A DNA stretch of 64,000 nt, from NCBI GenBank assembly GCA_020354025.1, contig CP070638.1, positions 124,001 through 188,000 of the forward strand, read 5' to 3'. Below are positions 24,497-62,243 of the stretch, in pieces. The notes below the pieces were generated by a model that ran no database searches, was not told the DNA's origin, and was given only the letters and a program-made list of their open reading frames with translations. Within the stretch, counting starts at the first letter, position 1; the number at the start of each line of letters is the position of its first letter. A program made the translations under genes and the position numbers. Source of the DNA: Fidelibacterota bacterium. Lineage in GTDB: Bacteria; Fidelibacterota; Marinisomatia; SCGC-AAA003-L08; TS1B11.

Positions 24497-25894
24497 ATGC
24501 TCAAACTGGTGTCTTTGCTTGTCCTGATCACCCTGTCCTGGGCAACAGCCCGGATCACACCGGAAATTTACCGTCAACGGCGGGCAGCGGTCCGAGCCCA
24601 GCTCGGCCCCGGTGAGCGGATAGTTCTGCTCACCGAAACCGTCACTATCCGGAACGGTGATGTGGAGCATGAATTTCGCCCCAACTCCGACTTCTGGTAC
24701 CTGACTGGTTTCGGAGAGCCCGAGGCGGCCCTGGTGTTAACCGGCGAAGACGTGAGTTTCTCCTTAGGTGATCAGGACTACCGGGGCAATGAGTTTCTGT
24801 TCCTGAGGGAGAAGAATCCGGTGAGGGAGCGATGGACGGGAATACACCTGGGGGCGGAACGTGCACCTGGAGCTCTCCTCATCGACCACGCTCTGCCTAT
24901 CGATATCTTCACCGATGCATTACCCTATCTCATGCAAGGGACCGGTACCATTTACGTTAATCTCAACCGGGATAAGCTGGAGCAGTCCCTTACTGTACTG
25001 GCCGAAGCGACGCTTCAATGGGTGCCAAAGGAGAATGGTGTATTCATCATAGCCGATGCAGTCCGACGTTTCAGGAAGCGACTCAGGGCCCGTACCAGGG
25101 GTATCAAGCCGCCCAACTGGAAGATCGCCTATAAATCGACCGATGAAATTATCCATCCCATGCGCCTCCGCAAGTCGGCTAGTGAGTTGGAGGTGCTCCA
25201 GCGGGCGGTGGATGTCACCGGTGATGGATTGGTGGCAGCCATTCAGCGGGTTCATCCCGGACTGTACGAGTATCAGGTGCAGGCAACAATTGAGTATGAA
25301 TTCAAGGATAACGGCGCGCAGCGAGAGGGTTTTCCATCCATCGTCGCTTCAGGACCCAACGCGCTCAATCTGCACTATTCAGAGAACAGCCGCCAACTTC
25401 AATCGGGTGAGCTACTGCTCATGGACGTAGGTGCCGAGGTTGACATGTACACCGCCGATGTCGCCCGCACAGTGCCCGTTAGCGGTTCCTTTTCACCTAC
25501 TCAGCGGGAGCTCTACGGCTATCTCCTGGAAGTCCAGGCAGCAGCGGCGGCTGCCCTGAAACCAGGTATCACCATTAATGAACTGAACCAGGTCGCCAGG
25601 GAAGTGCTCGAAGAGAAGGGCTATGACCAATACTTCATCCATAACTTATCCCATTGGCTGGGCATGGACGTACACGACGTAGGCCGGAAGGCAACACCCG
25701 CCGAACCGGGGATGATCTTGACCATCGAGCCTGGCATTTACATCCCGGTTGACGATCAAGCGGTGCCCCAGTCCTACCGGGGTATAGGCATGCGCCTGGA
25801 AGATGATTTCCTGGTGACAGAAAAGGGTGCCGTTATACTATCCGGGAAAATCCCCCGCACCATCGAAGAAATTGAATCCTTGATGAAACAATAA
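24497..25894 (+). CDS. Exported Xaa-Pro aminopeptidase (M24 family)
   Basis: A pita-bread metallopeptidase that removes N-terminal residues before proline. The five metal ligands are seen in order: Asp in LLMDVGAEVD, Asp in TADVARTVP, His in NLSHWLGMDVHD, Glu in TIEPGIYIP and Glu in MRLEDDFLVT. The N-terminal aminopeptidase-P domain (about residues 20-165) has the FRPNSDFWYLTGF pattern. ATG 24497 has GAGGA seven bases upstream and exposes a signal sequence (LKLVSLLVLITLSWATA), so the enzyme is likely periplasmic or surface; it has 465 residues. Longer in-frame starts lack support. Confidence 0.9.
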   Translation: MLKLVSLLVLITLSWATARITPEIYRQRRAAVRAQLGPGERIVLLTETVTIRNGDVEHEFRPNSDFWYLTGFGEPEAALVLTGEDVSFSLGDQDYRGNEFLFLREKNPVRERWTGIHLGAERAPGALLIDHALPIDIFTDALPYLMQGTGTIYVNLNRDKLEQSLTVLAEATLQWVPKENGVFIIADAVRRFRKRLRARTRGIKPPNWKIAYKSTDEIIHPMRLRKSASELEVLQRAVDVTGDGLVAAIQRVHPGLYEYQVQATIEYEFKDNGAQREGFPSIVASGPNALNLHYSENSRQLQSGELLLMDVGAEVDMYTADVARTVPVSGSFSPTQRELYGYLLEVQAAAAAALKPGITINELNQVAREVLEEKGYDQYFIHNLSHWLGMDVHDVGRKATPAEPGMILTIEPGIYIPVDDQAVPQSYRGIGMRLEDDFLVTEKGAVILSGKIPRTIEEIESLMKQ

Positions 25895-58188: not shown

Positions 58189-58918
58189 CACGTCTGAAAA
58201 GAAATGTTCGGCCCCGGCTGGAAATTATCATGTAGGAAAAACCGGTCACAAATCCGCCAATATGCTCAAACCAGGCCACGCCGCCAACCAGCTGCCCCTG
58301 CAGGCTGACAAGCCCGTTAATCGCCTGGACTAGGAACCAGAATCCAAGGACTACCATGGCCGGCAGGCGGATGGTGGTGATGAAAATCACGATGAAGACC
58401 AGAACGTGGATACGGGCCCGGGGATAACGCACCAGGTAACCCCCCAGGACACCGGAAACGGCACCGCTGGCCCCCACTACCGGTAGCATGCTGCCGGGGA
58501 TCACGATCAGATGCAAAAGACCAGCGGCCAGGGCTGTCAGGAAGTAGAACAGGGCGAACCGCACATGCCCTAGCGCTCCTTCCACGTTGTCGGCGAAGAC
58601 GTATAGGAAGAGCATGTTGCCTATGATATGCATCCACCCGGCATGGATGAAAGGGGAGGTGAAGAGTGTTACTATTCCCGGCATGAGCCGTACCTCCGTG
58701 TACCCCAGCAGCTCACGATGGTATTCGAGAACAGTCTGGGCTTCGCTGCCCCAGAAATGCGCCGGGATAAGCCCGAATCGTAGTATAAAGACCTGCTGGG
58801 CCATAAGATCCATCAGGAATGTCTGATAGACAAAAACCAACACATTCATAACCAGTATTGAATAGGTCACGTACGGGATGAGGATGCGGGGATTGTCGTC
58901 TTTGTAGGGGAAGAACAT
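58175..58918 (-). CDS. Rhomboid-family intramembrane serine protease
   Basis: A six-helix rhomboid protein. The catalytic Ser lies in VGASGAVSGVLGG (GxSG), the His in WFEHIGGFVTG, and HIIGNMLFLYVFADNVE is the usual first-helix signature with the HxxxN pair. It is 247 residues. ATG 58918 shares one base with the stop of the M23 peptidase gene, so the two are coupled. Substrates are unknown. Confidence 0.9.
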   Translation of the reverse strand: MFFPYKDDNPRILIPYVTYSILVMNVLVFVYQTFLMDLMAQQVFILRFGLIPAHFWGSEAQTVLEYHRELLGYTEVRLMPGIVTLFTSPFIHAGWMHIIGNMLFLYVFADNVEGALGHVRFALFYFLTALAAGLLHLIVIPGSMLPVVGASGAVSGVLGGYLVRYPRARIHVLVFIVIFITTIRLPAMVVLGFWFLVQAINGLVSLQGQLVGGVAWFEHIGGFVTGFSYMIISSRGRTFLFRRDGYS

Positions 58919-61236
58919 TATTCGATGAAGAAGGTTACATTCCTGGCGGCGGTGTTGCCCAGCTGATCGGTGGCTGTGATGGCCATTTTGTGCTTTCCCC
59001 GCTGCAGTAGGGTCGGCAGCACATAAGTTACTGCCTTCCGGGAGGTGTTGTACTCGAAAATCCGGGATTGGTCGTCCAGTGTGAGAGAAATGGCGGTCTC
59101 GTCTTTGATGCCTGCCACCCGGTCCTCGATATTGAAGCGGATTCTCCGTAGGTCAGCCTGGCGGTAAGTGGCGCCGTCTCCGGGCCTCAGGAGGTCAATG
59201 ACCGGCGGCTCGGTCTCTTCCAGAAGAGCAAAAACCTCTCCGCTGGTGAATAGGGTACGGTATGCCCGTGTTCTGATTAGATTGTCGGGATCAGCAGCTC
59301 CTGTGGGTGTCATGAATTCCCACCCCGTTCGCTGGTCCAGATAAAAGATGCCGGCATGGTCAGGAAGTAGTCGATTGGTGGGTGCCAGCATCTTTAGGCC
59401 AGCAGGCCCTTTATAGGGTCGCGTAAAAGGCCCGACCTTTACTGGAAGCATCACGAGTCGGGCGCCTTTGGGCGGGGGTGTCTCGCTCATAGAAAGCCAG
59501 ACGAAGGTGCTGTCATAAAATGTGCCCGGGCGAAAGTCCAGCTGGAAATCCCCAGTGACGTCGGATAGCCGTCCTCGCTTGGTAGGCGGCACTACCACGC
59601 CCGTAATAGGCAGGCGTATCTCGTATGTCGGATCTCCTGTAGGACCCACTTCCCGAGGGGAATCCTTTCGGAATTGGGAGAGACTCACCCGTATGATGAC
59701 TTCCTCCAGGCCGGACAACTGGGATAGGTAGAAGGTAGGTGATACGAAATCCACGGGACTGACCATCCGGGTCGAGTACCGTTGCACACCACCACCGGTC
59801 CGAAGCAGCAGCTCAGGTGGCAGGGGCAGGTAGTAATCACTGCTCACCTGAAAAATGACTCCGCTGTCAAGGTGTTCGATCTGGAGGGTAAACTTGCGCT
59901 GATTGGATAAATGCTTATCAGGGACCAGGCTGAGATGGACCGGTTCGAGTCTGGCTCCCCAGCGGTCCACCCCCACGATCTGGACAATGCGCCGCTGGCC
60001 GGTATTTCTAGGTACCACAAACCGCTGTTGCCGTCCGGCAGGCTGTTTGGCTCGATGGCTGAACTGGTCAACCTGTCGCCCCCGGATATCGAAGAGAAAG
60101 ATATGATACTGACGCAGAGGGGTGCTGGAATCCAGCGTAATAACCCAGCCGTCTTCATTGTCAGACCAGACCGCCGAGGCTTCCAGCCGGGTGGGAGGAG
60201 TATAGGCTAGCACTCCTTGGAGAACGGCTGTGTTACCGCCTTGGTCCCACACCTTGATATGGAAGCGATGATATCCCGGCCCTAACTTGAGCTTAGTGCT
60301 GGAACGGGATTGTACAAATGAAAGGGAGTCGTTGTCGGGGGCAGTGAATAGGCGGTGGAAGTCCGTACGCTGCCGTCGCCACTGGGCATAGTCCCGTTCA
60401 AGTTCCACGAGCTGACCTTCCTCGAAACCGTAGTGGTCGAACTGGATACAGTAGCGCCGGATGCCGTCCACTGTAAGGCTAAGCCCGTAAAGGGTGGGGC
60501 GATAGCGCACTTCAGGCAGCCGGTCGTAAGCCTCCACTGCCAGACCGAAAGGTCCCGCAACAGCGATGGTATCAGCTATAACATACCGTCGGCTTCCGGT
60601 TCTGAGCGCAGGGATGATCGAGGGCAGTGGGCTTCCGTGCGCCACCGTTTCCGGCGAGAGGGGGATTATTGCCAGGGAAGCGATTTCCGGTCCGGCCTCG
60701 TCTTCAAATTCAATACCGTTGGCCAAGGGATTAAGGGGCCGGTTTTTAGCGTCTCGCAGCTCGAAATGCAGGTGGGGGCCGGAAATGGTGCCTGTATCCC
60801 CGGTATACGCGATAACGTCACCCCGCCGTACTGGAATGTCAGAGCGCCCGAACCTCAGGTCCAGAGCGTATTTCCCTTGGCGTTCCTGAAGTGTACGGAC
60901 CCGTCGTTCCAAGCCCGGGGCGAACTTCTGCAGGTGCGCGTATACGGCCAGCCGACGGTCCTTCAGACGCAGATAGATTGCTTTCCCGTAGCCCTGGGTA
61001 CCGACCAGTAGCCGCTCCACGTAGCCGTCCTCGACGGCATAGACCTCATACCCGCTGGTGCCTCTGGTGGCGATATCCAGACCAGCGTGATACCGGCGCG
61101 GGCGCATATCGCCGAAAGTGGCTGTAATCTTGCGGCTGGCTTCAGTAGGCCAATGGTAATCCTGTGCCAGGCCGGGAACTGCAAGCAGGAGCAGTCCAAA
61201 AGCGGCAAGATGATGATAGCGGCAGGAAAAGTACAC
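58918..61236 (-). CDS. Large exported M23 (LytM-type) peptidase
   Basis: An exported 772-residue protein. A signal sequence (AAFGLLLLAVPGLAQ) precedes an M23 domain (about residues 28-165) with the zinc ligands in YHAGLDIA and GPHLHFELRD and the catalytic His in YAHLQKF, so activity on peptidoglycan crosslinks is likely. The remaining 600 residues are beta-rich with several Ig-like segments and end in DQLGNTAARNVTFFIE, resembling a C-terminal Ig-like domain. The start is GTG 61236. It is the first gene of the long minus-strand run through the rhomboid gene. Confidence 0.88.
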   Translation of the reverse strand: MYFSCRYHHLAAFGLLLLAVPGLAQDYHWPTEASRKITATFGDMRPRRYHAGLDIATRGTSGYEVYAVEDGYVERLLVGTQGYGKAIYLRLKDRRLAVYAHLQKFAPGLERRVRTLQERQGKYALDLRFGRSDIPVRRGDVIAYTGDTGTISGPHLHFELRDAKNRPLNPLANGIEFEDEAGPEIASLAIIPLSPETVAHGSPLPSIIPALRTGSRRYVIADTIAVAGPFGLAVEAYDRLPEVRYRPTLYGLSLTVDGIRRYCIQFDHYGFEEGQLVELERDYAQWRRQRTDFHRLFTAPDNDSLSFVQSRSSTKLKLGPGYHRFHIKVWDQGGNTAVLQGVLAYTPPTRLEASAVWSDNEDGWVITLDSSTPLRQYHIFLFDIRGRQVDQFSHRAKQPAGRQQRFVVPRNTGQRRIVQIVGVDRWGARLEPVHLSLVPDKHLSNQRKFTLQIEHLDSGVIFQVSSDYYLPLPPELLLRTGGGVQRYSTRMVSPVDFVSPTFYLSQLSGLEEVIIRVSLSQFRKDSPREVGPTGDPTYEIRLPITGVVVPPTKRGRLSDVTGDFQLDFRPGTFYDSTFVWLSMSETPPPKGARLVMLPVKVGPFTRPYKGPAGLKMLAPTNRLLPDHAGIFYLDQRTGWEFMTPTGAADPDNLIRTRAYRTLFTSGEVFALLEETEPPVIDLLRPGDGATYRQADLRRIRFNIEDRVAGIKDETAISLTLDDQSRIFEYNTSRKAVTYVLPTLLQRGKHKMAITATDQLGNTAARNVTFFIE

Positions 61237-61440
61237 CGGGCGGAAATTTAAAGCATCGGAAAGGGGCAGATTGGGATAATCTGGTAGGAGCAGGCGACCG
61301 ATTTACCTATCAAATATCAGGGGGAATGAGTTATCATCACTGCAAAACCGTCGATGACTAGATCCGGCTAACCTGGGTCATGGGTGATATAAACCGGATT
61401 GCTACGTGCTGTTAACCGCCAAAAAAAGCTATCCGCTCAT

Positions 61441-61480
61441 TAGCAGTGTGGCGCAATATCCACTGCTAGTAACGATATTG
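61441..61480. ncRNA. Possible H-type pseudoknot element
   Basis: TAGCAGTG (61441-61448) pairs with CACTGCTA (61461-61468). Inside its loop, CAATATC (61454-61460) is the exact complement of GATATTG (61474-61480) just outside. The pairings cross, so they make either an H-type pseudoknot (stems of 8 and 7 bases, five-base linkers) or two alternative structures. I do not know which strand is transcribed. Recognition is by base pairing only. Confidence 0.35.
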
Positions 61481-61487
61481 TAGGTAC

Positions 61488-61511
61488 CTCGTAATCCTTC
61501 AGGACTACGAG
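61488..61511. repeat. Near-perfect 24-base inverted repeat
   Basis: CTCGTA-a-TCCT-tc-AGGA-c-TACGAG is symmetric except for one A/C pair, eight bases after the possible pseudoknot. It could be a hairpin belonging to the same RNA, or a protein-binding palindrome for the downstream TetR regulator. Confidence 0.5.
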
Positions 61512-61619
61512 CGACCAACGGCTATAGGATAAAAAAGTACTTGCATGGGGAGTTTACGATATAGTAAATTAATGACAGAAAATGTAAAGTAGTACCAAGA
61601 TCGTAAATTATGTAAACAG

Positions 61620-62243
61620 ATGAAATCGGGTATGAATGAATCACTTGACCATGAAGCAAACCAGTCGCCGAAATACCATCAACTGTTAAAGACAGCCGAG
61701 GAGCTGTTCACGCGACATGGGATCAAACGTGTCACGGTGGGCGAGATCTGCGAAACCGCTGGGGTCAGCAAGATGACGTTTTACAAGTTCTTTAAGAACA
61801 AGGATGACTTGGCGAAGCGAGTGACCGTTGCCATCTTCGACGAGGGACAAGCCAGATTCAATGCTATTATGTCCCAGGAGATACCATTTGTGGATAAGAT
61901 GAGTCTATTCGTTGATTTCAAGCTCGATTACGGCAAGCGGATCAGTACAGAGTTCTATTTCGATATGCTTGGCACTAATCCGGAGATCCATGAATTCCTG
62001 GCGGAAAGGTCCCAAAACAATCTGCACCAGATACTTGAAATTTTCCGTGAAGCCCAGAGGAAGGGGGAGATAAGGAAAAACCTGAACTTGGAATTCGTAG
62101 CGTTCATGCTCGATCATACCTTGGAATTGAGCGAGGATCCCCGCCTCCAAGTTATTTTTCCAAGCACATATGAACTGGTGCGTGATTGGCTGGACTACTT
62201 CTTCTACGGCATTATGGGTAAAGAAGGAGAGGTAAATGCGTGA
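61620..62243 (+). CDS. TetR-family transcriptional regulator
   Basis: A 207-residue repressor-type protein. The N-terminal helix-turn-helix (about residues 20-65) shows ELFTRHGIKRVTVGEICETAGVSKMTFYKFFKNKDDL in pieces, the standard TetR pattern; the rest is a helical ligand domain with no recognisable specificity. Starts at 61620 (shown) and 61632 are both possible, without a clear ribosome binding site. The AT-rich repeats just upstream are plausible autoregulatory operators. It precedes the lipoprotein-sorting gene and porin gene, whose export system it probably controls. Confidence 0.88.
   Translation: MKSGMNESLDHEANQSPKYHQLLKTAEELFTRHGIKRVTVGEICETAGVSKMTFYKFFKNKDDLAKRVTVAIFDEGQARFNAIMSQEIPFVDKMSLFVDFKLDYGKRISTEFYFDMLGTNPEIHEFLAERSQNNLHQILEIFREAQRKGEIRKNLNLEFVAFMLDHTLELSEDPRLQVIFPSTYELVRDWLDYFFYGIMGKEGEVNA

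Follow-up and report, generated by a model that had tools for sequence, protein, structure and literature searches.

A rare, single-copy arrangement of crossing inverted repeats beside a tetR gene in a Fidelibacterota genome: a possible orphan small RNA

The spacer at positions 61237-61619 of the analyzed window, a 64-kb stretch of a 3.40-Mb single-contig genome of a Fidelibacterota bacterium, raises the question whether the crossing inverted repeats and the hairpin that it contains belong to a structured RNA and, if so, on which strand and in which transcript. This 383-bp spacer separates the minus-strand gene of an M23 peptidase (58918-61236, 772 aa) from the plus-strand gene of a TetR-type regulator (61620-62243, 207 aa), whose nearest relatives among named records come from Candidatus Neomarinimicrobiota and the FCB group. 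Six small open reading frames of 21-65 aa touch the spacer. The tetR gene precedes a LolA-like gene, followed by what we take to be a porin-like gene and an RND/MMPL-like exporter gene. A different operon is headed by the nearest TetR relatives (L027, L028 and L029, 57-62% identity); it presumably comprises genes for an outer-membrane-like protein and an ABC exporter, with a LolA-like gene in last position. In the congener locus L096 a shorter LolA-like gene (850-1320) lies just ahead of the full-length one, perhaps as a partial duplication, and L097 harbors a short frame (1008-1466) that is similar to this shorter gene.

All repeats that an earlier note on this DNA had listed were found in place by a repeat search and a script check of the coordinates. 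The first crossing repeat consists of TAGCAGTG (61441-61448) and CACTGCTA (61461-61468), which form 8 perfect base pairs, and the second of CAATATC (61454-61460) and GATATTG (61474-61480) with 7 perfect pairs. The two stems follow each other in the order of an H-type pseudoknot (S1 5', S2 5', S1 3', S2 3') with loops of 5, 0 and 5 nt, an assignment that is based on the stem order in the sequence, as folding was done with nested folds only. Seven bases separate the second arm of the 7-bp repeat from the hairpin CTCGTAATCCTTCAGGACTACGAG (61488-61511). The set is enclosed by TATCC (61430-61434), which lies beside seven A residues (61421-61427), and GGATA (61527-61531), whose last A opens a run of six A (61531-61536). 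The element as defined here spans positions 61424-61533.

Read 5' to 3' on the minus strand, the element begins with a U-run and the 5' arm of stem P1 (UAUCC, 61527-61531), followed by P2, the 5' arm of the pseudoknot helix and the 5' arm of P3. The 3' arm of the pseudoknot helix lies in the P3 loop; the 3' arms of P3 and P1 (GGAUA, 61430-61434), the dinucleotide GC and a run of seven U (61421-61427) complete the order. The P2 hairpin (61480-61519) has a 10-bp core with a UGAA loop and one G-U pair. It extends outwards by pairing of GGT (61483-61485) with ACC (61514-61516) and by two further pairs, so that P2 comprises 15 pairs on the minus strand. P3 (61441-61468) is an 8-bp stem with a 12-nt loop and a predicted stability of -10.6 kcal/mol, in which the third pair has a probability of 0.995. 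For the seven pairs of the pseudoknot helix (61454-61480) the summed stacking energy amounts to -8.92 kcal/mol. The two helices abut with zero gap, which would allow a coaxial stack, and a single nucleotide (61480) belongs both to the pseudoknot and to the remaining fold, namely to P2.

The two strands are not equivalent as potential RNAs. On the minus strand 10 of 10 pairs of the hairpin core can form, one of them the G-U, which corresponds to an A-C mismatch on the plus strand. Accordingly, the energy of the P2 core is -13.5 kcal/mol on the minus versus -9.6 kcal/mol on the plus strand, and the same pair set over the whole fold yields -36.3 versus -32.7 kcal/mol. Only on the minus strand can the run of seven U be understood as a 3' end. 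This suggests, on the basis of one sequence, that the minus strand makes the more plausible RNA.

The earlier note considered three such stems in close succession unlikely to be chance. A tight pseudoknot with stems of 8 and 7 bp was found in 5 of 100,000 dinucleotide shuffles of the spacer, and a 10-bp hairpin with at most one mismatch in 3,328. Both within 20 nt of each other occurred in none of the 100,000, which bears out that judgement; the joint pattern was defined after it had been seen, and the note could have singled out any other pattern, which means that these shuffle figures are not clean probabilities. When the whole 64 kb were shuffled 600 times, 17 pseudoknots with at least 15 pairs and loose loops were obtained. 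Four of them were tight, a rate that would give one such pseudoknot in roughly every third genome of 3.40 Mb. A 10-bp hairpin was flagged near 3 of the 17 and 2 of the 4 tight ones, counts that may include overlaps with the pseudoknot itself; at 1,500 random places the background of this flag was 0.8%. Under a looser rule (stems of at least 7 bp, longer loops) the real window contains eight overlapping matches at four places, compared with a mean of 1.0 in 20 shuffles. The nested fold of the 110-nt element has a z score of -3.70 on the minus and -3.38 on the plus strand, and values as low as these occur in 3 and 6 of 1,162 window tiles, respectively. Other cuts of the element gave z scores from -2.63 to -3.65. 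Thus, the fold energy by itself is unexceptional and the joint pattern is exceptional. The lowest z score of the tiled window (-3.96) is located at 24531-24640 in a coding frame which we take to be aminopeptidase-P-like and which adjoins a presumably metK-like gene on the other strand.

These figures also bear on a reading without any RNA function, in which the dyads would have arisen by chance or be decayed remnants, in a spacer created by the rearrangement that brought the tetR operon next to the peptidase gene. Equally low z scores in coding DNA agree with it, and scanning many windows for unlike patterns always yields some rare ones. The absence of the joint pattern from all 100,000 shuffles argues against it, as such a pattern would be unexpected even with the roughly 2,000 spacers estimated, not counted, for a genome. 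The genomic context in turn favors it. In all three congeners compared, the peptidase gene is adjoined by a divergent gene that is presumably glycosyltransferase-9-like, whose homologue is located about 90 kb away in the present genome; therefore, the tetR side of the spacer differs from that of the congeners. The element may be no older than this rearrangement. Together with the lack of detectable conservation in the searches described below, this makes an absence of RNA function a serious, tentatively held explanation.

If the element is an RNA, its position relative to the neighboring promoters determines what kind of RNA it could be. The tetR promoter was recognized by alignment of the region upstream of the start codon with five relatives (L027-L031 of 65 TetR loci). 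The -35 box of the relatives, TTGAC in four and TTGAT in L027, aligns with TTGCAT (61541-61546), and the -10 box of L029 (TATATT) with TAAATT (61565-61570). With a spacing of 18 nt the pair is in register with TTGACA..TATATT of L029. A consensus promoter scan missed this promoter. Since it begins at 61541, the element ends before the likely transcription start of tetR. On the other side of the spacer, a block AGATTATCC..GCTTTAAATTTCC on the minus strand (61282 down to 61242) is kept in three of three congeners and stops five bases short of the GTG start codon of the peptidase gene. Because of this short distance, the block is read as the probable promoter of a peptidase mRNA with almost no leader. 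The element would thus lie between two promoters that were predicted, not mapped, and in neither of the usual 5' leaders, the place where a riboswitch or attenuator of tetR or of the peptidase gene would be expected.

The proposal of a leader RNA or attenuator made in the earlier note is disfavored by these positions. A plus-strand 5' leader of tetR would be in keeping with an element upstream of the gene on its coding strand. Its promoter starts beyond the element, and the plus strand has the A-C mismatch in the hairpin, lacks terminator-like sites within the spacer and would have to bridge the 8-bp stem with a loop of 5 nt, all of which leaves this reading scarcely credible. A leader or attenuator of the peptidase mRNA, starting at a distal minus-strand promoter, would have the element on the correct strand, some 190 nt ahead of the start codon, and a U run at its 3' end. 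Against this stand the conserved block abutting the start codon in all three congeners, where the element was not detected, and the placement of the element past the synteny break; such a leader is quite improbable. For a switch between mutually exclusive folds, also suggested in the earlier note, no support has been obtained so far. The competing stems, which were looked at individually and not by a systematic search, reach about -5 kcal/mol versus -10.6 kcal/mol for P3, and the pseudoknot has just one nucleotide in common with the nested fold. Among the options of the earlier note, the small RNA survives, as a candidate on the minus strand only.

Relatives of the element were sought with the whole spacer and with R2, a covariance model of its structure. 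In a DNA search of its own genome the element is single copy. Searching 60 genomes with the spacer gave some match at E values up to 1 in 34, own genome included. In other genomes, matches with E below 1e-5 were confined to three further members of the genus and to query positions 3-48 at the peptidase-proximal end; the next-best match had an E value of 0.014. R2 retrieves its own element and, on the opposite strand, the palindromic part of it (E 0.025). Across 244 other genomes of the phylum, a search of a size (more than 40 genomes) at which stricter filters lose weak matches, it found nothing convincing. Five matches with per-genome E values of 0.045 to 0.28 are taken as chance on these values only. 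The genomes of the same genus, two of whose three congeners are just 67-70% complete, and of the same family were all without a match in this search. A search of 23 genomes from the 65 that carry TetR relatives gave a single match (E 0.30). In 91 of 109 loci and the window, nothing outside the window fell below E 0.19; the matches in L093 (own genome, E 0.19), L051 (E 1.1) and L088 (E 2.1) are at chance level. No homologue with compensatory changes, as expected for a conserved structured RNA, was therefore found by R2 in the 244 genomes of the phylum, the 23 TetR genomes or the 91 loci.

A link of the element to the tetR family was rejected, as R2 finds none in the 65 TetR loci, five of which (L033, L038, L080, L082 and L088) have less than 400 bases upstream of the match. 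The same applies to a link to the LolA-like operon, with none in 14 loci (L096-L109) drawn from 66 genomes with a match. Rfam 15 gave no match in the whole window at the gathering score. At E values up to 5 over 61230-61660 there was none in the element and one snoRNA match outside it (61303-61345, E 3.8). The window contains neither tRNA nor tmRNA genes, phage and plasmid records yielded no match to the element, and three patterns tried on viral contigs had no exact match. A search of the literature on Marinimicrobia riboswitches revealed nothing on such an element by title.

The single copy also bears on two explanations at the DNA level. The crossing repeats and the 24-bp dyad could be three protein binding sites just upstream of the tetR promoter. 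Such operators would be consistent with the location directly upstream of the -35 box and with the arm centers of both crossing repeats, which are 20 bp, or two helical turns, apart. However, the 24-bp dyad has no second genomic copy at up to 3 mismatches, and the 8-bp dyad shows no excess (6 forward matches, itself included, versus 7 in a reversed control), so that genome counts do not support a multi-copy operator. No copy was found beside TetR relatives, and the 40 bp of the extended dyad with its symmetric internal gaps are, in our judgement, more like an RNA stem. Operators are thus unlikely. Less probable still is the relic of a small mobile element such as a REP or MITE, IS200/IS605-type ends or an integron attC site. 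Paired hairpins recall the ends of REP/MITE and IS200/IS605-type elements, and the element is located at a synteny break in a genome with one Y1 transposase match that has CCCAGCCATTCATGGCTGGG repeats on both sides. This transposase, of the RAYT type, is encoded at 1197-2045 of L092 and is the sole Y1 match of the genome at E 0.001. Like REP elements of such transposases, the element is an intergenic hairpin structure; unlike them, it is single copy and its sequence is unrelated to the repeats of the resident transposase, and a REP/RAYT element was rejected for these reasons. Moreover, its ends are not mutual inverted repeats beyond TATCC and no attC boxes were recognized, both as judged by eye, and there is no match in phage or plasmid records.

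In comparison with known systems, the element resembles H-type pseudoknots in its stem order, zero-length junction and two short loops. It differs in that no homologous family was found and that the crossing loop is short, with 5 nt spanning 7 bp on the minus and 8 bp on the plus strand. The loop sizes are included in the search ranges of PMC3835772, which according to that paper cover the majority of established H-type pseudoknots. A long spacer and the lack of a known family are shared with the orphan structured-RNA candidates of intergenic scans, such as PMC2864571 and the 26-genome survey PMC8632094. According to PMC8632094, spacers with structured RNAs generally exceed the average length and are richer in G+C, and its motifs are based on G+C-rich spacers and on several representatives, some with little covariation. 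The spacer described here is 383 bp long, but its G+C content is 43% (45% in the element) against 54% in the window, and the element has one representative.

The best explanation, to which we assign a probability of roughly one in three (0.35), would be a lineage-specific, pseudoknotted small RNA on the minus strand that is repressed by TetR from a divergent promoter. It is ranked narrowly above an absence of RNA function. A possible minus-strand promoter (TTTACA-16-TACTAT, 61561-61588) matches the consensus at 9 of 12 positions and would place the RNA start near 61554. It is a weak candidate, no better than chance, as three promoter-like sites were found where 2.5 were expected. It overlaps a candidate TetR operator, GTTTACGATATAGTAAA (61552-61568), which has one match in the 64 kb at a shuffle mean of 0.02. 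The motif GTTTACG inside the tetR promoter is common to the window, L028 and L029. A second candidate operator of the TTTAC/GTAAA type lies nearer to tetR (within 61541-61617), and GTTTACG and CGTAAA half-sites recur upstream of the TetR relatives L028 and L029.

In such a model, a promoter overlapping the TetR operator would drive transcription in the direction opposite to tetR and give an RNA of some 110-130 nt, with its start near 61554 and its end near 61421. TetR would repress it along with its own operon, and the RNA would end at the run of seven U. That it acts on the export operon linked to TetR, or on other mRNAs, is conjecture. The proposed small RNA is supported by the joint pattern that none of the 100,000 shuffles contained, the better pairing of the minus strand, its U run, the z score of -3.70 and the possible coaxial stack, as well as by the overlap of promoter and operator on one flank and a terminator-like stem before the U run on the other. 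This 3' end is the weakest step. The stem, CUGCUAAUGAGCGG (61446-61433 on the minus strand), has 5 pairs and -5.0 kcal/mol and would compete with the 3' arm of P3, and three terminator-like sites were found compared with 1.6 expected. P3 ends 13 nt before the U run, P1 has 5 bp with a pair probability of 0.71, and no strong stem adjoins the run. The small RNA is further opposed by the lack of any relative in the genomes searched, and hence of covariation, by the lack of an Rfam match and by its low G+C content, opposite to the G+C-rich spacers described in PMC8632094.

The sequence pattern is thus real and unusual, its function is unproven, and the element is regarded as a single-case candidate and possibly an orphan small RNA. 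The wider claim of a new class of pseudoknotted small RNAs in a narrow lineage, co-regulated through overlapping divergent promoters with a TetR-controlled operon for lipoprotein sorting and export, is rather doubtful. If the element is transcribed, it would represent a folded RNA confined to one lineage of a poorly studied group, and a case in which a TetR regulator governs a divergently transcribed small RNA. If it is not, it shows how a rare pattern in a single sequence misleads when relatives are absent.
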